Assembly (NCBI GenBank): GCA_021811085.1
Contig: JAJZPQ010000019.1
Location: 1-59,117 of the forward strand
Direction of reading: 5' to 3'
Length of the DNA: 59,117 nt
Source: Pseudomonadota bacterium
Lineage (GTDB): Bacteria; Pseudomonadota; Gammaproteobacteria; Burkholderiales; SG8-39
This document shows, one piece after another, positions 319 through 29,601 of the stretch; position 1 is the first letter of the stretch; every line of letters begins with the position of its first letter. The notes below the pieces were generated by a model that was not told the origin of the DNA, did no database searches, and saw nothing but the letters and a program-made list of their open reading frames with translations. The position numbers and the translations under genes were made by a program.

Positions 319-361
319 ATCGTAGCGAGGCGGACCGGCATGCATCATTGACCACGGTCAA
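319..361 (-). promoter_or_regulatory. FNR-like palindrome and -10 box of oxc
   Basis: TTGACCACGGTCAA at 348-361 is a perfect TTGAC-N4-GTCAA palindrome. Reading toward oxc, 23 bp separate it from TACGAT (324-319), a fair -10 box. This places the palindrome about 42 bp before the expected start of transcription, the class II position of FNR/CRP activators. Five further copies of the site lie before other oxalate and one-carbon genes. The function is inferred. Confidence 0.7.
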
Positions 362-383
362 TTTTCACCGCATCGCTAAGACT

Positions 384-3140
384 TCAAGCGAACACGGTTT
401 TCCACAGCCCCAGCGTGGCGTCGATGTACCGGGCGAGCGGCGCGTGCGCGACGCGCGCGTATTGCGCGCCGTTCAGCCTCTCTGCATGCTGCAGCCTGCG
501 GTATTCGCGGTAGCCGTCGCGCACCGTCATCGCCAGGGCCAGCGGAATCAGGCCGAGTTCCGCCGCCATTTTCAGTAACGCGATATTGCCCAGATTGGCG
601 GTCAGCTGCGGGTATTGCCGCGCATGCGCGAGCACCAGATATTGCACGATGAACTCGATGTCTATCATGCCGCCGCGGTCGTGCTTGAGGTCGAACAGTT
701 CGCTCTTGTTCGGGTGGGCATCGGCCATCTTCGCCCGCATCGCGACGATTTCGCGTTTGAGCGCCTCGGGGTCGCGGCTGCGGCGCAAGATGGCGCTGCG
801 TTCGGTCTCGAATGCGGCGCCCACCGCGGCGTCGCCGGCGCAGTAGCGCGCGCGTGTGAGCGCCTGGTGCTCCCACACCCAGGCATCCTGCTCCTGGTAC
901 AGGCGAAATGCCTCCACCGAGCTCACCAACAGGCCGCCGGCGCCGTTGGGCCGCAGGCGCAGGTCGGTCTCGAACAGCACCCCCGACGCGGTGGCGCTGG
1001 TGAGCCAGCTGTTGATGCGCTGCGCCAGGCGCGAATACAGCTCGGGCGCGCGCGCATCGTCGTCGTCGTACAGGAAAATGATGTCGAGGTCCGAGGCGTA
1101 GCCCAGTTCCTTGCCGCCGAGCTTGCCGTAGCCGACGACGGCGAAGCGCGGCGCCTCGCGATGGCGATTGCGCAGCTGCGACCAGCACTGCTCCAGCGTA
1201 ATCGCGAGCATCAGGTCGGCGAGCGCCGACAGATGGTCGGCCAGCACTTCGACCGTGAGCTGCCCGGCCAGATCCTGCGCCAGCAGGCGGAAAACCTGGG
1301 CGTGGTGCGCTTCGCGCAGCACGCCCATCTGGCGCTCGGTGTCGCCCTCATGGCGTGCCAGCTGCAGGCGCAGGCCGGCGGCGAATTCCTTCCAGTCCGG
1401 TGCCGCATACAGCGTGCGCACGTCGAGCAGCTCGTCGAGCAGCAGCGGATGGCGCGTGACATAGGCGGCGGCCCAGCCCGATGCGGCCAATAGCTGCACC
1501 ACGCGTTCCAGGGCCTGCGGGTATTCGTGCAGCAGCGCCAGATAGGAACTGCGCCGGCTAATGGCTTCGAGCAGGTCGAGCGTGCGCGCGAGCGCGGTCT
1601 CGGGTGCGCCCGCCTTGGCCGCCAGTTCGATCACGCGCGGCAACAGCGCGTCGTAGCGTTCGCGGCTTGCCTGTGGCAGTTGCGCATAGCGCTGCGAGGC
1701 GCGCGCGGCGGCGAGGCGCGCGTGTGCGGCGCGCGCGTCGGCGAAACCCAGCGTATACAGGCGCTCCTCGGCTGCCTGCTCATCGAGCTCGCCCCGCCAC
1801 AGCGGCGCGCAGGCATGTTCGTTCTGCGCCGGAGCGGCGAACACGCCGTCGAAATGGCGCGACACCTGCTCGCGATGCGCGTCGAGCGCGCGCAGGAATC
1901 CGCCGTAGTCGTCAAAACCCATGGCGCGCGCAACCAGCGCCTGGTCTTCGCTTCCCTCGGGCAGTTCGTGCGTCTGTGCGTCGTCCAGGTATTGCAGGCG
2001 ATGCTCGAGGCGGCGCAGGAAGTCGTAGGCCGCGGCGAGTTCGGCTACCGCCGGTGCGGGCAACAGGCCCTTTTTCTGCAGCAGCGCCAGCACCTGCAGC
2101 GTCGGGCGGATCTGCAGCTCCGCGTCGCGTCCGCCGCGCATCAGCTGGAATGCCTGGGCGATGAATTCGATTTCGCGTATGCCGCCCGGGCCGAGCTTGA
2201 CGTGCCCGGCGAGATCGCGCCGCGCGACCTCGGCGCGGATTTGCGCGTGCAGCGAGCGCATCGCGGCGAAGGCGCCGAAATCGAGATACTTGCGGAATAC
2301 GAACGGCCGCGCGACCGTGCCCAGTTGCTGCGCCAACGCGCCCGCGTCGGCTGTGTCCTTGCTGCTCGTTGCAAGTACGCTGGTGTCGCCACTTGTGGCA
2401 ACGACGCGCGCCTTGATCCAGGCGTAACGCTCCCATTCGCGCCCTTCGGCGATGAAGTAGTTTTCCAGCGCGTCCAGGCTGCAGGCGAGCGGTCCGGAAT
2501 CGCCGTTGGGGCGCAGGCGCATGTCGACGCGGAATACCTGGCCGTCCTCGGTGATATCGGCGAGTACATTGATGAGTCTGCGTCCGAGACGGGTGAAGTA
2601 TTCGTGATTGGACAGCAGCCGCTGCCCAGCGCCGGCAGCGGATGCGGGCGCGCTGGACACGGTCTCGCCTTCTTCCGGATAAACGAAAATCAGGTCGATG
2701 TCGGAGGAGACGTTGAGTTCGCGTCCGCCGAGCTTGCCCATGCCCACCACGATCAGTTCCTGTCTTTTGCCATTTGCGCTCGGTGTGCCGTACTGCGCTT
2801 CCAGCCAGGGGACTAGATGCTCCAGCGCATAGTCCAGGCTGAGCTCGGCCAGGTCGCTCATGCTGGCGACCACTTCGGCCAACGGCGCGCGGCCGCCCAA
2901 GTCGCGCAGCATCACGCGCAGCATGACTTGCCGGCGCAATTGGCGCAGCGCGCGCTTGAGTTCGTCCTCGTCTGCGGGCGCCTCGCGCGCGAGGCAGGCG
3001 CGCATGGCAGCGGTATCGAAAGGCTGTTCGATCGCATCCAGGGCGGCCTGGACCAGTTCCGGTTGGGCTTGCGCCAGGCGCCGGGCGTAGCGCGAATAGC
3101 TTAGCGCGTGGTCTAACGGAATACCCTGATCTGGAGGCAT
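384..3140 (-). CDS. glnE: Bifunctional glutamine synthetase adenylyltransferase/adenylyl-removing enzyme
   Basis: 918 codons, close to the usual length of GlnE (about 946 in E. coli). The protein has the two nucleotidyltransferase halves of the family: GMGKLGGRELNVSSDIDLIF near residues 132-151 (adenylyl-removing half) and GYGKLGGKELGYASDLDIIF near 672-691 (adenylyl-transferring half), each with the paired Asp residues that bind metal. It adds AMP to, or removes it from, glutamine synthetase in response to PII and glutamine. It is transcribed divergently from yhdP across a 117-bp gap, a common betaproteobacterial arrangement. The ATG at 3140 has no strong ribosome site, so the exact start is the least certain part. 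Confidence 0.96.
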   Translation of the reverse strand: MPPDQGIPLDHALSYSRYARRLAQAQPELVQAALDAIEQPFDTAAMRACLAREAPADEDELKRALRQLRRQVMLRVMLRDLGGRAPLAEVVASMSDLAELSLDYALEHLVPWLEAQYGTPSANGKRQELIVVGMGKLGGRELNVSSDIDLIFVYPEEGETVSSAPASAAGAGQRLLSNHEYFTRLGRRLINVLADITEDGQVFRVDMRLRPNGDSGPLACSLDALENYFIAEGREWERYAWIKARVVATSGDTSVLATSSKDTADAGALAQQLGTVARPFVFRKYLDFGAFAAMRSLHAQIRAEVARRDLAGHVKLGPGGIREIEFIAQAFQLMRGGRDAELQIRPTLQVLALLQKKGLLPAPAVAELAAAYDFLRRLEHRLQYLDDAQTHELPEGSEDQALVARAMGFDDYGGFLRALDAHREQVSRHFDGVFAAPAQNEHACAPLWRGELDEQAAEERLYTLGFADARAAHARLAAARASQRYAQLPQASRERYDALLPRVIELAAKAGAPETALARTLDLLEAISRRSSYLALLHEYPQALERVVQLLAASGWAAAYVTRHPLLLDELLDVRTLYAAPDWKEFAAGLRLQLARHEGDTERQMGVLREAHHAQVFRLLAQDLAGQLTVEVLADHLSALADLMLAITLEQCWSQLRNRHREAPRFAVVGYGKLGGKELGYASDLDIIFLYDDDDARAPELYSRLAQRINSWLTSATASGVLFETDLRLRPNGAGGLLVSSVEAFRLYQEQDAWVWEHQALTRARYCAGDAAVGAAFETERSAILRRSRDPEALKREIVAMRAKMADAHPNKSELFDLKHDRGGMIDIEFIVQYLVLAHARQYPQLTANLGNIALLKMAAELGLIPLALAMTVRDGYREYRRLQHAERLNGAQYARVAHAPLARYIDATLGLWKTVFA

Positions 3141-3257
3141 TGGGAGATGTTTTGCAGGTAAAATGATACGTTACGTTATCTGTTTTTTTCAGCGCGCGCG
3201 TTCATTGTAGGGCTTTCGCCGAAACGCGCCCAATCAGCATGGGAAACCCGTCTCCGG

Positions 3258-7187: not shown

Positions 7188-7192
7188 GCTTC

Positions 7193-7326: not shown

Positions 7327-7365
7327 GTATCATTCATCCCGGAGCCGACGAGAGGATCACGATCC

Positions 7366-8175: not shown

Positions 8176-8204
8176 GGGGCGGCCTGCGCGCCGCCCGGCT
8201 CAGC

Positions 8205-10834: not shown

Positions 10835-10849
10835 ATTTGGAGGCTGATT

Positions 10850-15167: not shown

Positions 15168-15554
15168 GTTCTTGTGCTTCCCCGATTTCCGAATACCGGC
15201 GATTTTAATTGACTAAGCCGGCAGGCGTGCGCCGGCGGATCGTCCGCGAGCGCCGGCCACGGTTCGCCACACGCGATTGTGTTACCATTTGCGGCCTGTT
15301 TTGATGAATCCTTCCGCACCAGCAATGCCGCTGTCCGCAGATCCCGTCCCTCGCATCCTCAAGCTGGCAGGAAGCGGTTCCAGCTCGACCGCTGCCATGC
15401 GCTCGAAACCGGCGGCGAGGCGGTGCGCCTGTACTATCCGCGCTGGCAGCGCGAGGCCAAGACCGGCACCGATTGACGGCGATTGACTTGGGTCAATGCG
15501 CTTGCCCGTCCGTCTGCCTGATCATCCGATTGCGATTCAACCAGGAAGCCAGAC
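15168..15554. other. Gap between glpK and sucC
   Basis: 387 bp between divergent genes. A short open stretch ending at 15476 (C-terminal residues GGEAVRLYYPRWQREAKTG) has gene-like codon use and could be the tail of a decayed gene, but it matches nothing I know. The FNR-like palindrome at 15483-15496 is the clearest signal. Confidence 0.4.
15483..15496 (+). promoter_or_regulatory. FNR-like palindrome upstream of sucC
   Basis: TTGACTTGGGTCAA, a perfect TTGAC-N4-GTCAA palindrome ending 58 bp before the sucC ATG. The -10 region expected 22 bp downstream reads TGATCA, a weak box, so promoter geometry is less convincing than at the sister sites. Confidence 0.55.
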
Positions 15555-16721
15555 ATGAAAATCCACGAATACCAGGCCAAGGAAGTGCTGCGCAAGTACG
15601 GCGTGCCCACACCCAAGGGGGTACCCTGTTTCTCGGTCGATGAGGCGCTCAAGGCGGCGCAAACCATACCGGGCAAGGTATGGGTGGTGAAGGCGCAAAT
15701 CCACGCCGGCGGCCGCGGCAAGGGCGGCGGCGTGAAGCTGGCGAAGTCGCTGGACGAGGTCAAGGCCTACGCCGGCCAGATCCTCGGCATGCAGCTGAAG
15801 ACGCACCAGACCGGCCCCGAGGGGCAGAAGGTGCGGCGCCTGCTGATCGAGGAGGGCGCCGACATCAAAAAAGAACTTTATGTCGGCATGGTGGTCGACC
15901 GCGTGACGCAGAAGGTGTGCCTGATGGCGTCGAGCGAAGGCGGGATGGACATCGAGGAAGTCGCCGCGCACACGCCGGAGAAAATCCACAAGGTGTTCGT
16001 CGATCCCGAAACCGGGTTGAAGGACGCCGAGGCCGACGCAGTCGCTGCGAAAATCGGCATTCCCGCGGCATCGGTGCCGCAGGCGCGCGTGGTACTGCAG
16101 GCGCTGTACAAGGCGTTCTGGGACACCGACGCAAGCCTGGCGGAAATCAACCCGCTGGTGCTCACCGGGGACGGCCGCGTGGTGGCGCTGGACGCGAAGA
16201 TCAACTTCGACTCGAACGCGCTGTTCCGCCACCCGGATCTGGTCGCGCTGCGCGACTTGGACGAGGAGGATGCGGCCGAGATCGAAGCGTCGAAATTCGA
16301 CCTGTCGTACATCTCGCTCGACGGCAACATCGGCTGCCTCGTGAACGGCGCCGGCCTCGCGATGGCGACCATGGATACGATCAAACTGTACGGTGCGGAG
16401 CCGGCCAACTTCCTCGACGTCGGCGGCGGCGCCACCGCGGAAAAAGTGACCGAGGCGTTCAAGATCATGCTGAAGAACCCGAAGGTCAAGGGGATCCTGG
16501 TCAATATCTTCGGCGGCATCATGCAATGTGACACCATCGCCCGCGGCGTGGTGGCCGCGGCGCGCGAAGTCAATCTGTCCGTGCCCCTGGTGGTGCGCAT
16601 GAAGGGCACCAACGACGAGATGGGCAAGCAGATCCTGAAGGATTCCGGCCTACCGATCATTTCAGCCGACAACATGGCCGACGCGGCGCAGAAAATCGTC
16701 GCCGCCGTCGCGGGCAAGTAA
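15555..16721 (+). CDS. sucC: Succinyl-CoA synthetase beta subunit (ADP-forming)
   Basis: 388 residues, the standard SucC length. It begins with the ATP-grasp domain ([40 protein letters not shown]) and ends with the CoA-ligase half ([49 protein letters not shown]). With SucD it interconverts succinyl-CoA, ADP and phosphate with succinate, CoA and ATP in the TCA cycle. Malate-CoA ligase MtkA of serine-cycle methylotrophs is a close relative; the KYGVPTPKG start and GGIMQCD segment read as SucC. An FNR-like site lies upstream, shared with the oxalate genes. Confidence 0.93.
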
Positions 16722-16791: not shown

Positions 16792-17676
16792 ATGTCCATC
16801 CTGATCAACAAGAACACCCGCGTCGTCACCCAGGGCATCACCGGCAAGACCGGCCAATTTCACACGCGCATGTCGCGCGATTACGCCAACGGGAAGAATT
16901 GCTTCGTCGCCGGCGTGAACCCGAAAAAGGCGGGCGAGGATTTCGAAGGCATACCGATTTACGCCAGCGTCAAGGAAGCGAAGCAGAAAGCCGGGGTCAA
17001 TACCTCGGTGATCTACGTGCCGCCGCCTTTCGCCGCTGCGGCGATCTGGGAAGCGGTCGATGCCGACCTGGATCTCGTGATCTGCATCACCGAAGGCATA
17101 CCGGTGCGCGACATGATCGAGATCAAGGACCGCATGCGCAAGCAGGGGAAGAAAGCCATCCTGGTCGGGCCGAATTGCCCCGGCGTGATCACGCCGGACG
17201 AAATCAAGATCGGCATAATGCCCGGCCACATCCACAAGAAGGGCCGCGTCGGCGTGGTGTCGCGTTCCGGTACCCTGACCTATGAGGCGGTCGGTCAGCT
17301 GATGGAACTCGGCATCGGGCAATCGTCGTGCGTCGGCATCGGCGGCGATCCGGTCAACGGCATGAAGCACATCGACGTGATGAAAATGTTCAACGACGAT
17401 CCCGAGACCGATGCCGTGATCATGGTGGGCGAGATCGGCGGCTCGGACGAAGAGACCGCGGCGCTGTGGGTGAAGGACAACATGAAGAAGCCGGTGGTCG
17501 GATTCATCGCCGGCATTACCGCCCCCGCGGGCAAGCGCATGGGTCACGCCGGCGCCATCATTTCCGGCGGCAAGGGCACCGCGCAGGAGAAGCTGGAAGT
17601 GATGCAGGCTTGCGGCATCAAGATCACGCGCAATCCGGCCGAGATGGGCAAGACACTGAAGTCGATTCTGAAGTAG
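16792..17676 (+). CDS. sucD: Succinyl-CoA synthetase alpha subunit
   Basis: 294 residues. The CoA-binding Rossmann part ([18 protein letters not shown]) is followed by the ligase domain with the phosphohistidine His252 in [15 protein letters not shown] and the [14 protein letters not shown] loop. It is the catalytic partner of SucC, 70 bp downstream in the same direction. The gap contains a small GC-rich hairpin (GGGGGCACGCCCCC) that could tune the ratio of the two subunits. RBS AAAGGAAACG precedes the ATG. Confidence 0.95.
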
Positions 17677-17845: not shown

Positions 17846-19528
17846 GTGAATCAAGTCATCATCCCGATCAAATCCGAGCGCAAGCCGCGCGGAACAATCA
17901 AGGGCCGCACGCCCGATCCCAAGGCGCTTGCCGAAGTGCGCGCGTTGCTGGGCGATGCGCCGCGACGGCGCGATCTCTTAATCGAGCACCTGCACAAGAT
18001 ACAGGATCGCTATCGCATGCTGTCCGCGGCGCACCTTACTGCGCTGGCCGCGGAAATGAAAATGGCGCTGGCGGAAGTTTACGAAGTCGCGACCTTCTAT
18101 CACCATTTCGACGTGGTGAAAGAGGGCGATGCGGCGCCCGCGGCGATCACCGTGCGCGTGTGCGAGTCGCTGTCCTGCGAAATGGCCGGCGCGAAGGCGC
18201 TGCTGGCAAAGCTGCCGGCCATACTCGGCAGCGACGTGCGTGTGCTCGCCGTGCCTTGCGTGGGCCGCTGCGAATCGGCGCCCGTGGCCGTGGTCGGGCA
18301 GAATCCGCTGCCGCACGCGACTACGGGCGGGGTGATGAAACTGGTCGCAGCGAAGGCGGTCAAGCATAAGCCGGGCAGGTACGTCACCTACGCCGAATAC
18401 CGCAAGCCGGGCGGCTACGCCATCCTGCAGCAATGCCTCGCGGGCAAGCGCGACTATCAGCAACTCACGAAAGTGATGGAGGATTCCGGACTGCGCGGCC
18501 TGGGCGGCGCGGGATTTCCGGCCGGGCGCAAATGGAAAATCGTGCGCGCCGAGCCCGAGCCGCGCCTGATGGCGGTGAATATCGACGAAGGCGAGCCCGG
18601 CACGTTCAAGGACCGCTACTACCTCGAGCGCGATCCGCATCGCTTCCTCGAAGGCATGCTGATCGCCGCCTGGACCGCGGGCATCGCCGAGGTCTATGTC
18701 TATCTGCGCGACGAGTACGCCGGCTGCCGTGCAATCCTGGAAAAGGAAATTGCGGCGCTCAAGGCCGACCCACCTTGCGCGCTGCCGCCGATCCATCTGC
18801 GCCGCGGCGCGGGCGCATATATCTGCGGCGAGGAATCGGCGATGATCGAATCGATCGAGGGCAAGCGCGGCATGCCGCGCCTGCGCCCGCCCTACGTGGC
18901 CCAGGTCGGCCTGTTCGGACGGCCGACGCTGGAGCACAACATGGAGACGCTGTACTGGGTGCGCGAAATCCTGGAGCAGGGTGCGGCCTGGTTCGCCGGA
19001 CACGGACGCCATGAAAGAAAGGGCCTGCGCTCGTTCTCGGTCTCTGGACGTGTGAACAAACCCGGCGTGCATCTGGCCCCGGCGGGCATTACGGTGAACG
19101 AGCTGATCGCGGAATATTGCGGCGGCATGCTCGATGGGCATGCGTTCTACGCCTACCTCCCCGGCGGTGCTTCGGGCGGCATCCTGCCCGCTTCCATGGG
19201 CGACATCCCGCTCGATTTCGACACGCTGCAGCCCTACGGTTGTTTCATCGGCTCGGCCGCGGTGATGATCCTGTCGGATCAGGATCGCGCCACCGACGCG
19301 GCACGCAACCTGGTGCATTTCTTTTCCGAGGAATCCTGCGGCCAGTGCACGCCCTGCCGCGTGGGCACGGCCAAGGCGCTGGCGCTGCTCGATCAGCCAA
19401 AATGGAACCAAGCGCTGCTCGCCGAACTCTCACAGGTAATGATGGACGCCTCGATCTGCGGCCTGGGGCAGGCCGCGCCCAATCCGCTGCTCAGCGTAAT
19501 GAAATATTTTGCGCACGAGCTCGCGTGA
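17846..19528 (+). CDS. NAD-dependent formate dehydrogenase beta subunit (NuoE-NuoF fusion)
   Basis: 560 residues from a GTG start with AGAGGA upstream. The N-terminal thioredoxin-like NuoE domain binds a [2Fe-2S] cluster with Cys106-x4-Cys111 and Cys138-x3-Cys142. The NuoF domain follows (GLRGLGGAGFPAGRKW near 215-230 for FMN/NAD, NIDEGEPGTFKDRYYLE). A [4Fe-4S] site is formed by Cys498, Cys501, Cys504 and Cys538. This architecture is that of the Fdh1-type beta subunit (fdh1B of Methylobacterium), which passes electrons from the alpha subunit to NAD+. It is co-transcribed with the catalytic subunit 21 bp downstream. A stand-alone hydrogenase or Nuo diaphorase is less likely given the partner. 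Confidence 0.92.
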   Translation: MNQVIIPIKSERKPRGTIKGRTPDPKALAEVRALLGDAPRRRDLLIEHLHKIQDRYRMLSAAHLTALAAEMKMALAEVYEVATFYHHFDVVKEGDAAPAAITVRVCESLSCEMAGAKALLAKLPAILGSDVRVLAVPCVGRCESAPVAVVGQNPLPHATTGGVMKLVAAKAVKHKPGRYVTYAEYRKPGGYAILQQCLAGKRDYQQLTKVMEDSGLRGLGGAGFPAGRKWKIVRAEPEPRLMAVNIDEGEPGTFKDRYYLERDPHRFLEGMLIAAWTAGIAEVYVYLRDEYAGCRAILEKEIAALKADPPCALPPIHLRRGAGAYICGEESAMIESIEGKRGMPRLRPPYVAQVGLFGRPTLEHNMETLYWVREILEQGAAWFAGHGRHERKGLRSFSVSGRVNKPGVHLAPAGITVNELIAEYCGGMLDGHAFYAYLPGGASGGILPASMGDIPLDFDTLQPYGCFIGSAAVMILSDQDRATDAARNLVHFFSEESCGQCTPCRVGTAKALALLDQPKWNQALLAELSQVMMDASICGLGQAAPNPLLSVMKYFAHELA

Positions 19529-19549
19529 GCTAAGGCAGGAGCGAACACT

Positions 19550-22357
19550 ATGACCGCAATCAGCAAACAAGAGATCGCCGCGCTGCCGGTGGAGTTCAAG
19601 CTCAACGGCAAGACGGTGGTCGGACGCGCCGACGAAACCATCATCCAGACGGCGAAGCACTACGGCATCGACATTCCGCACCTGTGCTACAAGGAAGGAC
19701 TGCGCGCGGACGGCAACTGCCGCGCCTGCGTGGTCGAGATCAAGGGTGAGCGCGCGCTCGCGCCCTCCTGCTGCCGCACGCCCAGGACCGGCATGGAAGT
19801 GAGCACGGACAGCGCGCGCGCCGTCGCCAGCCAGAAAATGGTGCTGGAGTTGCTGTTGTCGGACATGTCCGAGCAGTCCTACACGCCCAATTCGGAACTC
19901 GATCTATGGGCCAAGAAGCTCGAGGTGGGCAAGCCGCGCTTTGCGCCGCGCGCGCAGCCCAAGTCCGACGTTTCGCACCCGGCTATGGCAGTGAATCTGG
20001 ACGCCTGCATCCAATGCACGAGGTGCCTCAGGGCCTGCCGCGAGGCGCAGGTGAACGACGTCATCGGCTACGCCTTCCGCGGCGACCAGGCCAAGATCGT
20101 GTTCGATTTCGACGATCCCATGGGGGCGAGCAGCTGCGTCGCCTGCGGCGAATGCGTGCAGGCCTGCCCGACCGGCGCGCTGATGCCTGCGCGCAACGCC
20201 GGGCTCACGCTGGCGCAAAAGACGGTGGACTCGGTCTGCCCCTACTGCGGCGTCGGCTGCCAGCTGACCTACCACGTCAGCAACAACAAGATCGTGCAGG
20301 TGCAGGGCCGCGATGGTCCGGCCAACCACGGCCGCCTGTGCGTGAAAGGACGCTACGGCTTCGACTACGCGCACCATCGCCAGCGCCTGACCATGCCGCT
20401 GATACGCAAACCCGGCGTGCCCAAGAGCGCGGACTACACGGTCGATCCGGACAACTGGCGCGACGCGTTTCGCGAAGCGAGCTGGGAAGAGGCGCTGGCA
20501 TTTGCGGCCGGCGGCCTGCGCGACATTCGCGATACCTACGGCAAGCATGCGCTGGCGGGCTTCGGTTCGGCCAAGGGTTCGAACGAGGAGGCCTACCTGT
20601 TCCAGAAGCTGGTGCGCACCGGCTTCGGCTCCAATAACGTCGACCATTGCACGCGCCTGTGCCACGCGTCCTCGGTGGCGGCCTTGCTCGAGGGCGTGGG
20701 TTCGGGCGCCGTGTCCAACCAGGTAAGCGACGTGCAGCTGGCCGAGGTGGTGATCGTGATCGGCTCCAACCCGACGGTGAATCACCCCGTGGCGGCGACC
20801 TGGATCAAGAATGCGGTCAAGAACGGCACCAAGCTCATCCTCGCCGATCCGCGCCGCACCGAGCTCGCGCGCCATGCGACCCACGTGCTGCAGTTCAAGC
20901 CCGATACCGACGTGGCCATGCTCAACGCGCTGATGCATGTCATCGTCACCGAAGGCCTGGTGAACCAGGACTTCATTCGCGACCGCACCTCGGGTTATGC
21001 AGCGCTGGCCGAGAACGTGAAGAAGTTCAGCCCCGAATTGATGGCGCCGATCTGCGGCATCCCGGCCGAAACGCTGCGCCAGGTCGCGCGCCTTTACGCG
21101 ACCTCGAAAGGTTCGATGATTCTGTGGGGCATGGGCGTATCGCAGCACGTGCACGGCACCGACAACGCGCGCTGCCTGATCGCGCTCGCGCTCATGACCG
21201 GGCAGATCGGCCGCCCCGGCACCGGTCTGCACCCCTTGCGCGGACAGAACAACGTGCAGGGCGCCTCGGACTCGGGCCTGATTCCGATGATGTACCCGAA
21301 TTACCAGCGCGTCGACAACCCCGAGGCCAAGGCGCGCTTCGCCAAGCTTTGGGGTGCACCCGAGCTCGACAGCAAACCCGGGCTGACCGTGGTCGAAATC
21401 ATGCATGCGGCGAAGAAAAAGGAAATCCGCGGCATGTACGTCATGGGCGAGAATCCGGCGATGTCGGATCCGGACCTGGAACATGCGCGCGCGGCCATGG
21501 CCGCGCTCGACCACCTCGTGGTGCAGGACATTTTCCTTACCGAGACCGCCTATCTGGCCGACGTGGTGCTGCCTGCGACTGCGTGGCCGGAGAAGAACGG
21601 CACGGTCACCAACACCGACCGCATGGTGCAGCTCGGGCGCAAGGCGATCGAGCCGCCGGGTGCGGCGAAAGAAGATCTGTGGATCATCCAGGAAATCGCC
21701 AAGCGCATGGGCCTGCCCTGGAACTACGGCCACGTATCCGAGGTGTTCGCCGAAATGCGCGCCGGCATGGACACCATAGGCGGCATTACCTGGGAGCGGC
21801 TCGAACGCGACTCGGCGGTCACCTATCCGTGCGAGGAAGAGGGCGATCCGGGCCAGCCGGTGGTGTTTACCGAGCATTTCCCCACCGCTACCGGGCGCGC
21901 CAAATTCGTTCCCGCCGACCTGATTTCCGCCGACGAACAGCCGGATGCGAACTACCCCATGGTGCTGATCACCGGGCGCCAGCTCGAGCACTGGCACACC
22001 GGCTCGATGACGCGCCGCGCCGGCGTGCTCGACGCGATCGAGCCCGAGCCGATGGCCTCGTTCCACCCCCTCGACCTCGACGGCTTCGACGTGAAGTCGG
22101 GCGAGGTGGTGACCGTGGTTTCGCGTCGCGGCAGCATCTCGCTGTATGCGCGCGCCGACGCCGGCACCCCGAGAGGGGCGGTGTTCATCCCGTTTTGCTA
22201 TTACGAGGCGGCGGCGAACAAGCTCACCAACCCGGTGCTCGACCCGTTCGGCAAGATCCCCGAGTTCAAGTACTGCGCGGTGAAAGTGAAGAAAGGCGGC
22301 GCCAAGCCGGTGCATTCGAGCTTCGGCGGCGGACAGTCGTTGCATGCGACGACTTGA
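19550..22357 (+). CDS. Formate dehydrogenase alpha (catalytic, molybdo- or tungsto-pterin) subunit
   Basis: 935 residues. It carries a [2Fe-2S] ferredoxin domain (Cys46, Cys57, Cys60 and Cys74 or 75), then two [4Fe-4S] sets (Cys153/156/159/163 and Cys196/199/202/206), and the cluster of the pterin domain (Cys230, Cys233, Cys237, Cys264). The active-site metal ligand is Cys371 followed by His372 in HCTRLCHASSV, replacing selenocysteine. There is no twin-arginine signal, so the enzyme is cytoplasmic. It oxidises formate to CO2 with reduction of NAD+ through the beta subunit. Mo versus W cannot be told from the sequence. No gamma subunit or fdhD is nearby. No FNR-like palindrome was found upstream of this operon. 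Confidence 0.94.
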   Translation: MTAISKQEIAALPVEFKLNGKTVVGRADETIIQTAKHYGIDIPHLCYKEGLRADGNCRACVVEIKGERALAPSCCRTPRTGMEVSTDSARAVASQKMVLELLLSDMSEQSYTPNSELDLWAKKLEVGKPRFAPRAQPKSDVSHPAMAVNLDACIQCTRCLRACREAQVNDVIGYAFRGDQAKIVFDFDDPMGASSCVACGECVQACPTGALMPARNAGLTLAQKTVDSVCPYCGVGCQLTYHVSNNKIVQVQGRDGPANHGRLCVKGRYGFDYAHHRQRLTMPLIRKPGVPKSADYTVDPDNWRDAFREASWEEALAFAAGGLRDIRDTYGKHALAGFGSAKGSNEEAYLFQKLVRTGFGSNNVDHCTRLCHASSVAALLEGVGSGAVSNQVSDVQLAEVVIVIGSNPTVNHPVAATWIKNAVKNGTKLILADPRRTELARHATHVLQFKPDTDVAMLNALMHVIVTEGLVNQDFIRDRTSGYAALAENVKKFSPELMAPICGIPAETLRQVARLYATSKGSMILWGMGVSQHVHGTDNARCLIALALMTGQIGRPGTGLHPLRGQNNVQGASDSGLIPMMYPNYQRVDNPEAKARFAKLWGAPELDSKPGLTVVEIMHAAKKKEIRGMYVMGENPAMSDPDLEHARAAMAALDHLVVQDIFLTETAYLADVVLPATAWPEKNGTVTNTDRMVQLGRKAIEPPGAAKEDLWIIQEIAKRMGLPWNYGHVSEVFAEMRAGMDTIGGITWERLERDSAVTYPCEEEGDPGQPVVFTEHFPTATGRAKFVPADLISADEQPDANYPMVLITGRQLEHWHTGSMTRRAGVLDAIEPEPMASFHPLDLDGFDVKSGEVVTVVSRRGSISLYARADAGTPRGAVFIPFCYYEAAANKLTNPVLDPFGKIPEFKYCAVKVKKGGAKPVHSSFGGGQSLHATT

Positions 22358-22381
22358 GTAAAAGCGCGTGCCAAGAGCCAG

Positions 22382-22566: not shown

Positions 22567-22651
22567 AAGTTCGATCGCTACAGCTCGAGGTATCCACCTA
22601 CATCGGCCGAAGGTTGGCGTGCGGCCATTGTGCGCACCGCTTCGGCAATTC

Positions 22652-22693
22652 TTGACCGCCATCAAGGCCGCGCCTTGTGCGTGTGCCTATATT
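22652..22693 (+). promoter_or_regulatory. FNR-like palindrome and -10 box of fhs
   Basis: TTGACCGCCATCAA (22652-22665) differs from the perfect palindrome by one base and is followed after 22 bp by TATATT (22688-22693), a strong -10 box. The fhs ATG is 37 bp further on. This is the cleanest class II geometry of the six sites. Confidence 0.7.
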
Positions 22694-22730
22694 TCGCCCC
22701 ATTAGTCCAAACACCATTACGGAGATCATC

Positions 22731-24401
22731 ATGCCAACGGACATCGATATCGCGCAGAAGGCGAAAATGCAGCGCATACCCAAGCTCGCCGCGGAAAAGC
22801 TCGGCATCGGCGAAGACCACCTCGTGCCCTATGGCCATTACAAGGCCAAGGTGTCGCTCGACTACGTCGACAGCCTGAAGGGCAAACCCGACGGCAAACT
22901 GATCCTGGTGACTGCGATCAGCCCCACGCCCGCGGGCGAGGGCAAGACCACCACCACGGTCGGCCTGGGCGACGCGCTCAATTACATCGGCAAGAAGGCG
23001 ATGATCTGCCTGCGCGAGCCCTCGCTCGGACCGGTGTTCGGCATGAAGGGCGGCGCCGCGGGCGGCGGCTACGCCCAAGTGGTGCCGATGGAAGACATCA
23101 ACCTGCATTTCACCGGCGACTTCAATGCCATCGCGCTCGCGAACAATCTGCTCGCGGCGCTGCTGGATAACCACATTCATCACGGCAACGAGCTCGGCAT
23201 CGACGTACGCCGCATCGCATGGAAGCGCGTGGTGGACATGAACGACCGCGCGCTGCGCGACATCGTGGTGTCGCTCGGCGGCCCGGGCAACGGCTATCCG
23301 CGCCAGGACGGTTTCGACATCGTCGTGGCCTCGGAGGTGATGGCGATTTTCTGCCTGTCGACTTCGCTCGAGGATCTGAAGAACCGCCTGGGCAATATCG
23401 TGGTCGCGTACAACCGCGACCAGAAGCCGATCTACGCGCGCGACCTGAACGCGCACGGGGCGATGACGGTGCTGTTGCGCGATGCGCTCGCGCCGAATCT
23501 GGTGCAGACGCTTGAGAACAGCCCGGCTTTCATTCACGGCGGTCCGTTCGCGAACATCGCCCACGGCTGCAACTCGGTGATCGCTACCCAGACTGCGTTG
23601 AAGCTCGCCGATTACGTCGTGACCGAAGCCGGTTTCGGCGCCGATCTGGGCGCGGAAAAGTTCATCGACATCAAATGCCGCAAGAGCGGCCTGCGCCCCT
23701 CCGCCACGGTAATCGTGGCCACGGTGCGTGCGATGAAATACCACGGCGGCGCCGACCTGAAGACGATCACGCAGGAGAATCTCGCCGCGCTGGACAAGGG
23801 CCTGGTGAACCTGGAGCGCCATGTCGACAACGTGCAGAGGGTGTACGGCATTCCCTGCGTGGTGTCGATCAATCACTTCACCAGCGATACCGCGGCTGAG
23901 GTGGACATGCTCAAGGCGCGCATGGCCAAGCTCGGCGTCAAAGTCGTGCTGGCCACCCACTGGGCCGACGGCGGCAAGGGCGCCGCCGAGCTGGCGAAGA
24001 TGGTGGTCGAGATGTGCGAGAAGAAATCCAGCCTAAACTTCGTCTACGAAGAGTCCGACAGCCTGTGGGATAAGGTCAACAAGATCGCGAAGAAGATCTA
24101 TCGCGCGAGCGAGGTCACCGCCGACGCCAAGGTGCGCAACCAGATCAAGAAACTGCAGGACGACGGCTACGGCCACTATCCGGTGTGCGTGGCGAAGACG
24201 CAGTATTCGTTTTCGACCGACGCGCAGCTGCGCGGCGCGCCGGAGAACCACGTCATCAACATACGCGAGGTGCGTCTCGCGGCCGGCGCTGAATTCATCG
24301 TGATGGTCTGCGGTGACATCATGACCATGCCGGGCCTGCCCAAGGTTCCCTCGGCCAACAAGATCGATCTGGTCGACGGCAAGGTAGTAGGACTGTTCTA
24401 A
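22731..24401 (+). CDS. fhs: Formate-tetrahydrofolate ligase
   Basis: 556 residues, the normal length. The nucleotide loop is [20 protein letters not shown] with Lys72; [51 protein letters not shown] and [11 protein letters not shown] follow. The enzyme makes 10-formyl-THF from formate, THF and ATP in the cytoplasm. I chose the ATG at 22731 (after ACGGAGATC) over an upstream GTG-type start. It is the link from oxalate-derived formate to one-carbon biosynthesis, and its promoter shares the FNR-like site of the oxalate genes. Confidence 0.96.
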
Positions 24402-24402
24402 G

Positions 24403-24511
24403 GGTCCGTAACAAAACGAGGGGAAATCCCCTCCGGGGACTTCGTTCGGGTCGCCTCCCCTCGTGCTCCCCTAAATCAGACCGTAACAAAATGACTTTTG
24501 TTACTGGTTCC
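24403..24511. repeat. Structured intergenic repeat, family 2, copy 2
   Basis: Directly after fhs. It matches the element at 7193-7326 in its GAGGGGA-a-ATCCCC, GGGGACTT, TTCGGGtCGCCTCCCCTC and CTCCCCTA blocks, lacks an internal 20-25 bp segment, and ends in the hairpin GTAACAAAA-tgac-TTTTGTTAC. Its start, CCGTAACAAAAC, repeats the same stem variant. Confidence 0.7.
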
Positions 24512-24647
24512 AAGCCACTGGCGCCGCGCGCGGGGATGCGCCGCTCGTGCGGCGCATTTGCCTTGCGCCTGTGCCTGCGCGCCGCACTAACCATCGCTCC
24601 CGCCGTGGAGTAAAATCGAAGCCTGCTGACGTAAACGTGGGCGCATC

Positions 24648-25382
24648 ATGGATTTTTCTCTGCAGGCATTCTGGATTCCGCTGTTCAAGATCATCTGGAT
24701 CAATATCGTCTTGTCTGGTGACAATGCGGTGGTGATTGCCCTGGCGGCACGTTCGCTCCCGCCGCGGCAGCAGACACTCGCCGTCGCCTGGGGCAGCGGC
24801 GCGGCGGTGGCGATGCGTATTGTTCTTACCTTGTTTGCCGTGGCGCTGCTGCAGCTGCCCTACCTGAAGCTGCTCGGCGCCGTACTGCTGTTGTGGATCG
24901 GCGTGCAGCTGCTGCTGCCCGAGGAGGGCGAGGCGGACATCGACGGCCACGAGAACATGCTGGCGGCGATCAAGACCATTCTGATCGCCGACCTGGTGAT
25001 GAGTCTGGACAATGTGATTGCAGTGGCCGCGGCCGCAGGCGACAGTGTCACGCTGCTGATTCTCGGCCTGGGCGTGAGCATTCCGCTGGTGATTTTCGGC
25101 AGCACGCTGTTGATGAAGGTGATGGAACGCTTCCCGATCATCATCACCGCGGGCGGGGCCCTGCTCGGCTTTGTCGCCGGCGAAATGGCGGTGAGCGATC
25201 CCGCTCTGGGCGATTGGATGAGTGCCAATTTCCAGATGCTGGAGAAAAGACCCATGCTCGCGGGCTTCGGTCTAGACCTGATCGTAGGCCTGGTCGGCGC
25301 GGCGCTGGTGGTGGCGGTAGGAAAGCTGCTGGCGCGCAAGCAGACGGTCGCCGTTGGCGAATCGCAGGAAATTCCTAGATAA
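24648..25382 (+). CDS. TerC/YjbE-family integral membrane protein
   Basis: 244 residues with about seven membrane helices. It has the family's acidic metal-site motifs WINIVLSGDNAVVIALAAR at the start and ADLVMSLDNVIAVAAAAG near residues 118-135. Members are proposed Mn2+ or other metal exporters, or partners of metalation of secreted proteins. The ATG at 24648 lacks a textbook ribosome site. I looked for the manganese (yybP-ykoY) riboswitch often found before such genes and did not see it. It lies between fhs and oxlT-1 but has no evident metabolic link with them. Confidence 0.9.
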   Translation: MDFSLQAFWIPLFKIIWINIVLSGDNAVVIALAARSLPPRQQTLAVAWGSGAAVAMRIVLTLFAVALLQLPYLKLLGAVLLLWIGVQLLLPEEGEADIDGHENMLAAIKTILIADLVMSLDNVIAVAAAAGDSVTLLILGLGVSIPLVIFGSTLLMKVMERFPIIITAGGALLGFVAGEMAVSDPALGDWMSANFQMLEKRPMLAGFGLDLIVGLVGAALVVAVGKLLARKQTVAVGESQEIPR

Positions 25383-25406
25383 TTCGTTTGCAGGCATTTT
25401 GCGAAA

Positions 25407-25450
25407 TTGACCCAGATCAATGCAGCTAGACGCACGAACAGCGGTATGCT
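25407..25450 (+). promoter_or_regulatory. FNR-like palindrome and -10 box of oxlT-1
   Basis: TTGACCCAGATCAA (25407-25420, one mismatch to the symmetric site) precedes TATGCT (25445-25450) by 24 bp. The leader to the ATG at 25631 is about 175 bases. Confidence 0.65.
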
Positions 25451-25630
25451 GTAAGGACAACGTGTTCAGGCATAGAAGATACCGGCCCGGCCAGGACCGC
25501 GCGCAGGCGCGTGATTGACGGACGCTGGTACGGCAAAAGCTAATAATTGCAGCTGCCCGACACGAATAAATAAATTCCGCAACCAGCGGGATTCCAATTG
25601 AGCGATGTACTTTTTGAGGGGGACACTATC

Positions 25631-26974
25631 ATGTCAAACGGTAGCAGTTCGCATACCGATCTCGCAAAGCAAACCTTGGGCCCGATCGCCGGAAATCGCT
25701 GGATACAACTGGCGGCCGGTGTGATTGCGATGGTCGTCATATCAAACTTCCAGTACGCCTTTACTCTGTTTACACCGGGGTTGAAGCAGCAGTTTGCGAC
25801 CGAGCCTTACGCCAAGATCGCGCTGATCTACACCCTGTTTATTCTGTTCGAGACCTGGCCGGTGCCGCTGGCGGGATACTTGATCGATAAATTCGGCATC
25901 CGCAATCTCATGCTCGTCGGCTCGGTGCTCATTTTTCTGGGATGGGTGCTCGGCGGAACGGTCGCGACTTCCGTTTTTCACTTGTACATCTGCTACGGCG
26001 TCTTCGCCGGTACCGGCGCGGGCATCATCTACATCGCGACCGTCGCCAATGCGGTCAAATGGTTTCCCGATAAAAGGGGCCTGGCAGCCGGCCTGACGGC
26101 TGCAGGATTCGGTGGCGGCTCGGCGCTTACGCTCATCCCCATCAGCGCTTCGATCAGCTCCATGGGCTGGGCCGGCGCGATGGCGGCGTGGGGTGTTGGT
26201 CAAGGCGTCGTGGCCATTGCCATGGCGCTGATCCTGCACCATCCGCCCAAAGGCTGGTTGCCTAAAGACTGGGTGCAACCCAAAGCGGTGGCGCAAACGC
26301 GGCGGGATTTTTCCGCGATGCAGATGCTGTCGCAGAAAGAGTTTTATGTCATGTATTTCATGTTCCTCATGGTCTGTACCGGCGGCCTGATGACCACGGG
26401 CAACATGTCGCAGATCGCGAAATCCCTCAACGTGTTCGACGCGAAGGTAATGGGTATCGCGATTGTTCCGTTCGTGGCAACCGTAGCGGGAGTCACCAAT
26501 GCGTTCGCGCGCATCATGTGGGGTGCGGTTTCGGACAGGTTCGGCCGGGAATACACGATGGCCTTCGCGTTTGCGCTTGAAGGCGCGCTCATCTATTTGA
26601 TGACGCAAATCTCGGGCAACCCGATCGCGTTCATGATCCTGATGCCCTTCGTGTTCCTTGCCTGGGGCGAGATATACGCTTTGTTCTCGGCGATAACGGG
26701 CGATGTGTTCGGCCCGAAGAACGCCTCGGGCAACTACGGCATTCTGTATACGGCCAAGGGCCTGGCGTCGATCATGGCGGGCTGGGGTGCCGCTGCGGTG
26801 GCAGCGCTCTATGCCGGCTCTTTCTCGGTGCCTTACTACATCTCGGCCATATTCGACATCACGGCCGCGATCATGGCCCTTTACATTTTGCGGCCCATCA
26901 TTCGCAAGAGGATCGCCGGCGAAGCGGCTGGTGCAGAAGGCAGTCCGGCCATCCCTGCAGCAGCGAAGGCCTGA
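25631..26974 (+). CDS. oxlT: Oxalate:formate antiporter-like MFS transporter (copy 1)
   Basis: 447 residues from the ATG at 25631 (GAGGGGG upstream; an in-frame TTG at 25598 is less likely). Twelve hydrophobic segments and the MFS loop AVSDRFGRE after helix 8 are present. The two residues that in Oxalobacter OxlT bind the dicarboxylate (Arg272, Lys355) are kept as Arg294 in NAFARIMWGAVSD and Lys376 in LYTAKGLAS. Exchange of oxalate for formate would also generate proton-motive force, because cytoplasmic decarboxylation consumes a proton. It is the first of two paralogues separated by 578 bp. Other OFA-family members carry other monocarboxylates; the frc/oxc context favours oxalate. Confidence 0.85.
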   Translation: MSNGSSSHTDLAKQTLGPIAGNRWIQLAAGVIAMVVISNFQYAFTLFTPGLKQQFATEPYAKIALIYTLFILFETWPVPLAGYLIDKFGIRNLMLVGSVLIFLGWVLGGTVATSVFHLYICYGVFAGTGAGIIYIATVANAVKWFPDKRGLAAGLTAAGFGGGSALTLIPISASISSMGWAGAMAAWGVGQGVVAIAMALILHHPPKGWLPKDWVQPKAVAQTRRDFSAMQMLSQKEFYVMYFMFLMVCTGGLMTTGNMSQIAKSLNVFDAKVMGIAIVPFVATVAGVTNAFARIMWGAVSDRFGREYTMAFAFALEGALIYLMTQISGNPIAFMILMPFVFLAWGEIYALFSAITGDVFGPKNASGNYGILYTAKGLASIMAGWGAAAVAALYAGSFSVPYYISAIFDITAAIMALYILRPIIRKRIAGEAAGAEGSPAIPAAAKA

Positions 26975-27552
26975 GCCGCGCCGATTGGTTTGCATGCCGC
27001 GACGTCTGCTCTGGAGTACCGGGCAGCCGTCGCGGCCGTTGCGGCAAACGGCGCATGCGCGCGTGCCGAAGCACTCCCAGATTTCGCCACGTTAAGCCGC
27101 TGCGCGGCGCACAGATACGCGCCGTTGCGCGTTGCGGATTAGGTATCTGCCGTTATCTCCATTGTCAGTGCAGCAATTGCGCTGATCCGTACACTCTGCG
27201 CCACTCCCGAGCGCGCTTCTGAATGCGAAGCCGGCGCGAAAGCACGATGCTGGTTTTCGCTGACTGCCGGCGCCTGTTGTTCACCTAGTTCGAACGCGCG
27301 CACCGGCCCGATGCTGTGCGTCTAGCGCGAAAAATCAGTCGAATCAAGTGCGGGTATACCCCAGCCCATTTGATCCGAAATATTTGACTCAAGTCAATGT
27401 TAAAAAATCACAGGCAAACGATAACCGTTGCTGCAAGCGAATCGAGCAAGTACGCGGTTTTGATCCGGATTTTTCAATGCTGTTCCAGGCGCAAGCGCAG
27501 CGCGATCCGGAGCTGAGCCTTACAAAAATTTGCACGCGAGGAGAACGTAACC
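26975..27552. other. Gap between the two oxlT-like genes
   Basis: 578 bp. No credible small gene was found. The last 170 bp contain the FNR-like palindrome (27384-27397), a -10 box, and the leader of oxlT-2 with GAGGAG ahead of its ATG. A TTTGATCC half-site-like word lies at about 27369. Confidence 0.5.
27384..27425 (+). promoter_or_regulatory. FNR-like palindrome and -10 box of oxlT-2
   Basis: TTGACTCAAGTCAA (27384-27397) is a perfect palindrome including the spacer. GATAAC (27420-27425) follows after 22 bp as a -10 box. The leader to the ATG is about 120 bases. Confidence 0.7.
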
Positions 27553-28851
27553 ATGCAAGACAATCAGCAGAGTTCCAAGTGGTATCACAACAGGTGGTCG
27601 CAGCTTGTTTTTGGCATCATCTGCATGGCGTTGATTGCCAACCTGCAATATTCCTGGACGTTGTTCGTCAATCCGATGGATACCAAGTACCATTGGGGCC
27701 GCTCGGCGATTCAGCTGTCGTTTTCGATCTTCGTTCTGGTTGAAACCTGGCTGGTCCCGGTCGAGGGCTGGTTGGTGGACAAGTACGGGCCGCGCCCGGT
27801 TATCGCGGTCGGCGGCGTGTTGGCTGCGGTCGGCTGGGTGCTCAATTCCTTCGCTAGCGCGCTGCCGGAGCTTTACGCGGGCGCGGTGATTTCAGGGATC
27901 GGCGCCGGTTGTGTATACGGCACTTCCGTGGGCAATGCGCTCAAATGGTTTCCGGACAAGCGCGGCCTCGCTGCCGGGCTGACGGCGGCCGGGTTCGGCG
28001 CCGGCGCGGCGCTCACGGTCATACCGATTGCCAACATGATCCACAATTCGGGCTATGAGGCGGCCTTCTTCGATTTCGGCATCTTCCAGGGCGCCTGTAT
28101 TTTTGTGCTCGCCATGCTGATGGTACGGCCGGTTCCGCCCAAAGGCGTCGTTGCTGCGCCGCGCATGGTGACGGTCAAGCATGACTACACGCCGGCGCAA
28201 ATGGTGAAGACGCCTGTATTCTGGCTCACCTATGTGTTGTTTGTGGCCGTGGCGGCCGGAGGCTTGATGGCGACGGCGCAGCTCGGCCCCATCGCAAAGG
28301 ACTACGGCTTGGCGAAAATGCCGATATCCCTATTGGGCTTCACCCTGCCGCTGCTGACCATGACCCTGTCGATCGACAATCTGTGCAACGGCTTCACCCG
28401 GCCCCTGTGCGGTTTCATCTCCGACCGGATAGGCCGTGAGAACACCATGTTCCTCGTGTTCGTCGGCGAAGGGCTGGCGCTGCTCGGGCTCAAGACCTTC
28501 GGCCATGACCCGTACGCGTTCATGCTGTTTGCCGCGCTGATATTCCTGTTCTGGGGCGAGATATTCTCGATCTTCCCGGCGATTTGCGCCGACACCTTCG
28601 GCGCCAAGAATGCGGCGGCAAATGCGGGTACGCTGTACACGGCGAAAGGTACCGCTTCCTTGCTGGTGCCTCTGGCATCGGTATTGTCGGCGGGCGGAAA
28701 CTGGGATCGGGTGTTCATCGCTGCGGCGATCATTACCATCGCCGCCGGCATTCTGGCTAAGTTCGCTTTGGCGCCTATGCGTGCGCGCTGGGTGAGCGCA
28801 TCCAACCAGAACGCATCTCTGGGCAAGACTGCAGCGCAAGCAGCAGCGTAG
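27553..28851 (+). CDS. oxlT: Oxalate:formate antiporter-like MFS transporter (copy 2)
   Basis: 432 residues, twelve hydrophobic segments, ATG preceded by GAGGAGAACGTAACC. It shares with copy 1 the QYSWTLF-like helix 1, KWFPDKRGLAAGLTAAGFG loop and SDRIGRENTM after helix 8. The OxlT substrate residues are Arg283 (NGFTRPLCGFISD) and Lys365 (LYTAKGTAS). Outside these motifs the two copies differ clearly, so they may differ in substrate (oxalate versus formate or another small acid) or affinity. It is convergent with the Crp/Fnr gene across a hairpin, and carries its own FNR-like promoter site. Confidence 0.86.
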   Translation: MQDNQQSSKWYHNRWSQLVFGIICMALIANLQYSWTLFVNPMDTKYHWGRSAIQLSFSIFVLVETWLVPVEGWLVDKYGPRPVIAVGGVLAAVGWVLNSFASALPELYAGAVISGIGAGCVYGTSVGNALKWFPDKRGLAAGLTAAGFGAGAALTVIPIANMIHNSGYEAAFFDFGIFQGACIFVLAMLMVRPVPPKGVVAAPRMVTVKHDYTPAQMVKTPVFWLTYVLFVAVAAGGLMATAQLGPIAKDYGLAKMPISLLGFTLPLLTMTLSIDNLCNGFTRPLCGFISDRIGRENTMFLVFVGEGLALLGLKTFGHDPYAFMLFAALIFLFWGEIFSIFPAICADTFGAKNAAANAGTLYTAKGTASLLVPLASVLSAGGNWDRVFIAAAIITIAAGILAKFALAPMRARWVSASNQNASLGKTAAQAAA

Positions 28852-28860
28852 CGGTGCAAT

Positions 28861-28890
28861 CTGACTCCGCCCGGTCACGGGCGGAGTCAG
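28861..28890. terminator. Hairpin between convergent oxlT-2 and Crp/Fnr genes
   Basis: CTGACTCCGCCC-ggtcac-GGGCGGAGTCAG is a perfect 12-bp stem between two convergent stops. There is no T-run on either side, so it is either a weak or factor-assisted bidirectional terminator or an RNA 3'-end stabiliser. Confidence 0.55.
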
Positions 28891-28902
28891 CGCCGGCCGG
28901 CC

Positions 28903-29514
28903 TCAGCCGGCCAGCTTGCGCTTCTTCAGCCGCGACAGGGTTTCCGGGGTCAGGTTGAGATAGGAGGCAAGTTCCTTCTTCGGAATCCGTTCGAGCAGTT
29001 CCGGATGCTTGCGCTTGAAGCGCAACAGCCGCCCCGGCGCATCGAGCAGATGCAGCGTGATGGTGTGCGCCATGACTTCGGACATCAGGCTCATGACTTC
29101 GTATTCGAAGCGCGCCTTGACGTCTGTATGCCGATCGAGAAAGCCGACCCATTGCTGCATCGACAGTTTGGCCACGCGCACCTTGGTCACGGCGACAATG
29201 CTGTAGGGCATCGGCGTGTGCAGGCGCCAGGCTGCGTAGGACGTGTCCATGTCGGTCTCGGCGGCAAAGCGCAGGATCATTTCCTTGCCTTTGGGGTCGC
29301 TCACCACGCGCTTGAGGATGCCGTCGAGGATGAAGAATTGCTCCATCGCGCTGTGGCCCTGGTGCACCAGCAGGTCGCCCTTGCCGAAGTCGGCAATCTC
29401 CAGCAGCGGCTCAAGATCGTTCCACGCCCGCGACGGCATGTCCTTGAGGACTAGGCCCTGCCTGAGTTGCAGGCGGACGGTGTTGCGTTGCGGATGCGTT
29501 TCGATGGAGGGCAT
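28903..29514 (-). CDS. Crp/Fnr-family transcriptional regulator without cysteines
   Basis: 203 residues. The N-terminal half is a cyclic-nucleotide-like beta-roll (residues about 22-115, GDLLVHQGHSAMEQFFILDG). A long dimerisation helix follows (about 120-155), then a helix-turn-helix IPKKELASYLNLTPETLSRL near the very C-terminus. The recognition helix holds Glu191, Ser194 and Arg195, the E-x-x-S-R pattern by which FNR reads TTGA half-sites. There is no Cys anywhere, so no FNR-type iron-sulphur sensing, and the roll lacks the cAMP phosphate-binding Arg-x-A set of CRP. The effector is unknown. It is divergent from frc with the TTGAC-N4-GTCAA site between them, so it probably controls that gene and perhaps itself. 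Confidence 0.88.
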   Translation of the reverse strand: MPSIETHPQRNTVRLQLRQGLVLKDMPSRAWNDLEPLLEIADFGKGDLLVHQGHSAMEQFFILDGILKRVVSDPKGKEMILRFAAETDMDTSYAAWRLHTPMPYSIVAVTKVRVAKLSMQQWVGFLDRHTDVKARFEYEVMSLMSEVMAHTITLHLLDAPGRLLRFKRKHPELLERIPKKELASYLNLTPETLSRLKKRKLAG

Positions 29515-29558
29515 ACGGGGATCAGGGGCGTTTCGAGTTCAAATTAAAAGCTAAATCA

Positions 29559-29601
29559 TTGACCTCAGTCAAGGTGCGCTTGCGCGCGAACTTCTTAGTA
29601 T
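29559..29601 (+). promoter_or_regulatory. FNR-like palindrome and -10 box of frc
   Basis: TTGACCTCAGTCAA (29559-29572) is a perfect TTGAC/GTCAA palindrome in the gap between the divergent regulator gene and frc. Toward frc, TAGTAT (29596-29601) follows after 23 bp. Toward the regulator the site is only 44 bp from the ATG, where binding could repress or activate a short-leader transcript. Confidence 0.7.

Follow-up and report, generated by a model that had tools for sequence, protein, structure and literature searches.

A small CRP/FNR-type regulator very probably controls oxalate genes through a shared palindromic site in Burkholderia-related bacteria

Palindromic sites at the oxalate genes

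The stretch of DNA analysed here, 59,117 nt of contig JAJZPQ010000019.1 from a member of the order Burkholderiales (the window), carries genes of oxalate breakdown, and the palindrome TTGAC-N4-(G/A)TCAA occurs in it six times, ahead of oxc, sucC, fhs, two oxlT genes and frc. The question raised by this locus is which protein reads these sites and to what effect. A gene for a CRP/FNR-family regulator of 203 residues, designated P0001 and proposed as the reader, lies between oxlT2 and frc (28903–29514, minus strand). We put the probability at about 0.82 that P0001 is a dedicated class II activator which reads the sites and switches on the oxalate genes. In largely uncultured Burkholderia-related bacteria, a small regulator very probably reads a common sign at the oxalate genes and turns them on.

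The six palindromes had been listed in an initial annotation of the window, and the letters and positions of all of them were confirmed; as it had said, every site lies in the intergenic gap ahead of its named gene. The site TTGACCGTGGTCAA (348–361, minus strand) precedes oxc, is followed after 23 bp by the –10 box TACGAT and is conserved in relatives. On the plus strand, TTGACTTGGGTCAA (15483–15496) stands ahead of sucC, sucD and the formate dehydrogenase genes, with GATCAT after 23 bp as a poor –10 box not of the form TANNNT; TTGACCGCCATCAA (22652–22665) precedes fhs, with TATATT after 22 bp; TTGACCCAGATCAA (25407–25420) precedes oxlT1, with TATGCT after 24 bp; and TTGACTCAAGTCAA (27384–27397) precedes oxlT2, with GATAAC after 22 bp. 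The last site, TTGACCTCAGTCAA (29559–29572, plus strand), is common to frc on the plus strand and the regulator gene on the minus strand and has TAGTAT after 23 bp towards frc. The spacings of 22–24 bp given in the annotation were found, and of the five –10 boxes that it had counted only the GATAAC of oxlT2 does not fit TANNNT. Copied DNA was rejected as the origin of the sites, as the annotation had held, since both the N4 cores and the flanks differ.

The same box elsewhere in the genome

The genome (4.48 Mb in 148 contigs, of which the window makes up 1.3%) was scanned for the same boxes. It contained 47 distinct TTGACNNNNRTCAA sites, derived from 62 strand rows, and 68 sites of the wider pattern TTGAYNNNNRTCAA, compared with 1 for the reversed pattern. 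The window was enriched both in TTGACNNNNRTCAA sites (6 of 47, binomial p 3.6e-5) and in perfect TTGAC-N4-GTCAA palindromes, of which it contains 4 of the genome's 15 (p 3.7e-5). The motif is nevertheless a general FNR-type box that is widely used in this genome and is not private to the oxalate genes. Since 62 of the 68 TTGAYNNNNRTCAA sites lie outside the window, the six sites alone are no proof of an oxalate regulon, and on the evidence of the window FNR is a full rival. According to that explanation, the oxygen regulator FNR/Anr of this genome, or a DNR-like nitric oxide regulator, would own the sites, the oxalate genes would be part of a low-oxygen response, and the neighbouring regulator would act elsewhere. 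The motif type is indeed identical, and besides a cysteine-containing FNR (L026) the genome encodes other proteins whose helices are of the FNR type (L028, L029).

Forty-two of the 62 outside sites were fetched, and their adjoining genes were called by script and inspected by eye. Beside some of them were sequences which we take, by eye and without a family search, to be hemerythrin-, universal stress- and NuoA-like. In the FNR gene of this genome, the longest reading frame has a TTGATCCACATCAA box at its 5′ edge (G000:C38:22555–22568), perhaps reflecting autoregulation of FNR.

Presence and absence of the regulator

The strongest test of the link to the regulator is its presence or absence. 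Among 399 genomes of the order, 67 had both the regulator and oxc, 9 the regulator alone, 8 oxc alone and 315 neither (p 1e-56); at most three oxc candidates were scored per genome, so that a divergent oxc can be missed in this sample. The corresponding numbers in 100 relatives were 51, 4, 2 and 43. The genomes compared here and below are related, so the counts are not independent and the p-values overstate; the pattern of site and regulator recurs across many families.

In genomes that have oxc and lack the regulator, oxc was seen without a site in every case (10 of 10: G025, G048 and eight more). Nine of them were seen as stretches of 10–19.5 kb, and G025 as an 801-base stretch at oxc plus one fhs locus. 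The clearest case is G048, where a single stretch still contains the genes for sucCD, formate dehydrogenase, fhs, oxc and frc together with the formyltransferase gene fmtL; not one site occurs in the 19.5 kb of this cluster, compared with 105 in the genome as a whole, where the reversed pattern occurs 4 times. TTGAY-N4-RTCAA exceeded its reversed control in all ten genomes, and in six the excess was 6.7- to 29-fold. The absence of the site from oxc in genomes that have the box elsewhere argues against FNR as its owner, less so in the four genomes with a weak excess.

The other genes gave a similar picture. A site preceded fhs in 40 of the 47 regulator-bearing genomes and in 1 of the 16 that lack it (p 2e-8; the truncated G003 and fragments in G054 and G038 did not enter the count). 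For sucC, the numbers were 13 of 18 and 1 of 12, with 30 loci seen out of 91 genomes with a match; the 14 sucC loci bearing a site were all those of the genus itself and a few others. The regulator-only genomes were fetched as long stretches in eight of the nine cases. In six of these, a thiamine-type enzyme replaces oxc and the site is present, while in G342 the site precedes frc and the stretch contains no oxc. Only 0.9 kb was seen of G094, containing a site and the start of an oxc-like gene.

The thiamine-type enzymes standing at the oxc position beside regulator and site (L387, L388, L391, L393, L394 and L395) are 26–27% identical to Oxc. Three of the six were scanned against NCBIfam; acetolactate synthase and 2-hydroxyacyl-CoA lyase were the top models, all below cut-off, and the Oxc models scored far below. 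These enzymes may represent a second type of oxalyl-CoA decarboxylase.

Four large genomes (G213, G366, G175 and G308; stretches L379–L382) carry oxc and frc-like genes and have no match to the regulator genome-wide and no site in the stretch; their oxalate genes must be controlled otherwise.

Conservation at orthologous loci

Orthologues of the regulator were found in 55 of the 100 relatives. TTGAY-N4-RTCAA was present directly upstream of the regulator in all 30 fetched loci and at oxc in all 30 fetched oxc loci. A scan of species genomes gave at least 495 stretches with a relative of the regulator (E up to 1e-3, so that some may be other CRP/FNR proteins), and the best 80 of these, 0.82 Mb in total, were examined as named loci. 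Genes for oxc-like proteins or frc flank the regulator in 79 of the 80, and a site lies within 400 bp upstream of it in 78, which again speaks for P0001 and against FNR.

Of the 165 sites in the 80 loci, 161 stood no more than 350 bp ahead of one of the genes counted next, and sites were rare elsewhere in these loci. A site preceded 65 of 65 oxc-like starts (up to five of which are just 26–28% identical to Oxc), 76 of 78 regulator starts within 350 bp, 37 of 51 tctC starts, 12 of 15 fhs starts, 25 of 69 frc starts, 5 of 14 oxlT starts and 1 of 9 usp starts. In these loci frc mostly follows oxc. Conservation upstream of orthologues, the check proposed with the initial annotation, was accordingly observed for oxc, the regulator, frc, fhs and transporter genes. 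The regulon of six genes which it had described is supported as an oxalate regulon by this comparison, and it proved wider than six genes, often including a tctC-type transporter in relatives.

It is hardly conceivable that the sites are chance palindromes or a general intergenic feature. The motif is short, with 10 defined or half-defined bases, and might for this reason arise by accident; yet the window held six distinct TTGACNNNNRTCAA sites (10 strand matches) against an expectation of 0.11, none of 100 shuffles reached 10 matches, and the reversed control gave 0 hits against 165 in the 80 loci. Sites were also absent before the control genes fmtL (0 of 62 starts) and terC (0 of 29 starts) in these loci. 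These counts speak against an equal density of palindromes in random intergenic regions, which the annotation had named as grounds for refutation.

In the relatives, tctC heads a TctC-TctB-TctA transporter; Pfam confirmed all three components in L397 and two of them, TctC and TctA, in L387. Genes of this type with a site in or near the preceding gap occur at L397 6106–8860 and L387 7272–10784 and also in L388 and L395, and no OxlT was seen in those stretches. This transporter is a candidate oxalate uptake system. The record titles of six bins among the loci (L324, L349, L355, L356, L360 and L365) read Bordetella parapertussis; their oxalate clusters resemble those of other uncultured Betaproteobacteria, and the titles look doubtful.

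Promoter geometry

Class II activators of the CRP/FNR type bind about 41.5 bp before the transcription start, clear of the –10 box. A TANNNT box follows the site at 22 or 23 bp in most promoters of three genes (oxc, 92 of 94 distinct promoters; frc, 31 of 31; fhs, 32 of 38), which places the centre of the site near –41.5/–42.5 of the predicted start. Predicted promoters of oxc, frc and fhs therefore have the class II arrangement, with the site next to the –10 box. The class II position proposed for the regulon in the initial annotation holds for these three genes and does not extend to sucC and oxlT, which fall outside the rule of 22–23 bp; five of the ten oxlT promoters have TANNNT at 24 bp. 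Most oxc sites (76 of 94) are TTGAC..GTCAA.

Spacing also separates the oxalate promoters from other FNR-type promoters, which have the same box and a different distance to the –10 box. Among the 42 other sites of this genome (84 orientations), TANNNT was found at 21 bp in 15 and at 22 bp in 8 and never at 23 bp. These 23 orientations also look class II-like, as FNR control would have it, but the spacing of 23 bp, present in 65 of 94 oxc promoters, was seen in 0 of 84 orientations, a comparison that sets one genome against many. With sites following the regulator and not FNR-type boxes in general, FNR as the sole regulator was dropped as the principal explanation, and we regard its ownership of the sites as very unlikely. 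Comparison among genomes shows the regulon, its link to P0001 rather than to FNR, and the arrangement of the promoters.

The site also lies upstream of the regulator's own gene, and in that direction TANNNT at 22–23 bp was found in just 3 of 96 cases. P0001 therefore probably controls its own gene by a means other than class II activation, which may be repression. This observation favours another explanation, that P0001 is a repressor or mainly an autoregulator whose site blocks polymerase. At oxc, frc and fhs, however, the predicted start is about 42 bp from the site, which stands ahead of the –10 box and clear of it, and we consider this explanation unlikely. A search for an overlap with the –35 region that would prove autorepression gave no clear case.

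Several observations weigh against activation by a dedicated regulator, in addition to the many boxes outside the window. A site before fhs is missing from 7 of the 47 regulator-bearing genomes and a site before sucC from 5 of the 18. No site was found at oxc of G019, in the regulator–frc gap of G061, or upstream of the regulator in G067 and in the named loci L334 and L370, and the 8-kb contig of the regulator-only genome G448 has neither a site nor oxc. Conversely, G012, with no regulator and no match to oxc or frc, has a site before sucC, as would suit FNR, and G014, in which no regulator was found (87% complete, with contig ends near), has sites ahead of both fhs and a tctC gene. For G366, G300, G308 and G175, four of the ten genomes with oxc and no regulator, the excess of boxes was just 1.9- to 3-fold, making these four weaker controls. 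The rule of 22–23 bp was followed by 1 of 14 sucC and 0 of 10 oxlT promoters. Finally, the genome encodes FNR-type proteins with recognition residues similar to those of P0001, and overlap in binding between them is possible, judging by these residues.

The regulator protein

P0001 has an N-terminal beta-roll of the cyclic nucleotide-binding type, with a PF00027 score of 39.7 bits (cut-off 27.5). Its AlphaFold2 model showed a CRP fold with a predicted local distance difference test score (pLDDT) of 91.5, and Foldseek gave GlxR and CRP as the closest structures (E 1.9e-13 to GlxR). A C-terminal helix-turn-helix is formed by the final helices of the model, residues 179–185 and 190–202; the Pfam model HTH_Crp_2 scored 19.4, below its cut-off of 27, and the chain ends shortly after the second helix. 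The recognition helix is PETLSRL, with ETLSR in all 39 distinct orthologues and invariant across 42 aligned rows, and the full PETLSRL in 38. The pattern E..SR is that of FNR, which recognises TTGA half-sites; P0001 has this helix together with TTGA-type half-sites, and comparison suggests that the two belong together.

Searches with NCBIfam models gave no family for P0001 at E 1e-10, and in plasmids only distant relatives were found, in five records and all below 60% identity. Within CRP/FNR, a known kind of regulator, P0001 forms a new subfamily.

FNR/Anr of E. coli and Pseudomonas has an E..SR helix, the palindrome TTGAY-N4-RTCAA and a class II position near –41.5. The P0001 system shares the type of helix, the palindrome and the position, and differs in having no conserved cysteines, mostly C-type half-sites, a –10 spacing longer by 1–2 bp, and an oxalate regulon. 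Zero cysteines occur in the 203 residues of P0001, which therefore has no FNR cluster, lacking the ligands of [4Fe-4S]; cysteines are absent from 29 of 39 orthologues, and those in the other 10 are at no conserved position. Haem- or nitric oxide-dependent regulators of the DNR/NnrR type have the CRP fold and a similar DNA site, and the DNR structure 3dkw is a weak sequence match of P0001 (E 0.0014), but the P0001 family is linked to oxalate genes. CRP of E. coli and GlxR resemble the P0001 model in fold and differ in DNA site and in the aligned cyclic AMP contacts. These contacts in CRP are G71, E72, R82 and S83, to which T91, S92, M102 and P103 of P0001 align in a weak alignment. The best sequence match among solved structures is 3dn7, a cyclic nucleotide binding regulatory protein (E 7e-12), which has a similar C-terminal helix and is distant from P0001.

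Among the papers listed in the literature searched, which mostly did not include subscription journals, none describes a CRP/FNR-type regulator of the oxc/frc pathway, and the remark in the initial annotation that no such oxalate regulon is known agrees with this. The main texts of PMC12927642, PMC9476978, PMC3886118 and PMC10192776, as far as available, contain no word beginning with "regulator". In the accessible part of the Oxalobacter proteome paper PMC4764995, TetR- and LysR-type regulators, Lrp and IHF are named, and Crp and Fnr are not.

Proposed mechanism

P0001 would bind TTGAC-N4-(G/A)TCAA as a dimer through its FNR-type recognition helix and, centred near –41.5/–42.5, would act as a class II activator. 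It would switch on uptake (oxlT1 and oxlT2), transfer of coenzyme A (CoA) by frc, with sucCD as a possible source of acyl-CoA, decarboxylation by oxc, oxidation of formate by the dehydrogenase encoded behind sucCD, and entry of formate into one-carbon metabolism through fhs. The trigger may be oxalate or an acyl-CoA of the pathway, sensed in the changed beta-roll pocket, and oxalate, oxalyl-CoA and formyl-CoA are natural candidates for the effector. We hold it only as a tentative proposal, at slightly less than even odds, that P0001 founds a CRP/FNR subfamily in many Betaproteobacteria which senses one of these three metabolites in a beta-roll pocket lacking the cyclic AMP contacts and coordinates the complete pathway, which begins with the uptake of oxalate and ends in formate oxidation and one-carbon assimilation.

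Oxalate breakdown is relevant to soil carbon, plant-microbe exchange and kidney stones. A function is proposed here for the protein family behind the 495 or more stretches described above, some of which perhaps encode other CRP/FNR proteins, and the matched regulator and operator are a ready candidate for an oxalate-responsive switch.

Gene content of the cluster

The gene for oxalyl-CoA decarboxylase, oxc, is represented by its N-terminal part (1–215, minus strand, start at 215); the contig end cuts the gene, and the remainder is on contig C52. All genes that follow are on the plus strand. The genes sucC (15555–16721) and sucD (16792–17676) are followed by those for a NuoE/NuoF-type diaphorase subunit, assigned to formate dehydrogenase by context (17846–19528), and the formate dehydrogenase alpha subunit (19550–22357). 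Next are fhs for formate-tetrahydrofolate ligase (22731–24401), oxlT1 of the oxalate/formate antiporter family (25631–26974) and oxlT2 for an oxalate/formate antiporter (27553–28851). Beyond the regulator gene are frc for formyl-CoA:oxalate CoA-transferase (29732–31003) and, conserved behind it, fmtL for an Fmt-like formyltransferase (31040–31960). The product of fmtL scored 132 bits with the methionyl-tRNA formyltransferase model, below the cut-off of 201, and may transfer formyl groups between formyl-CoA and folate.

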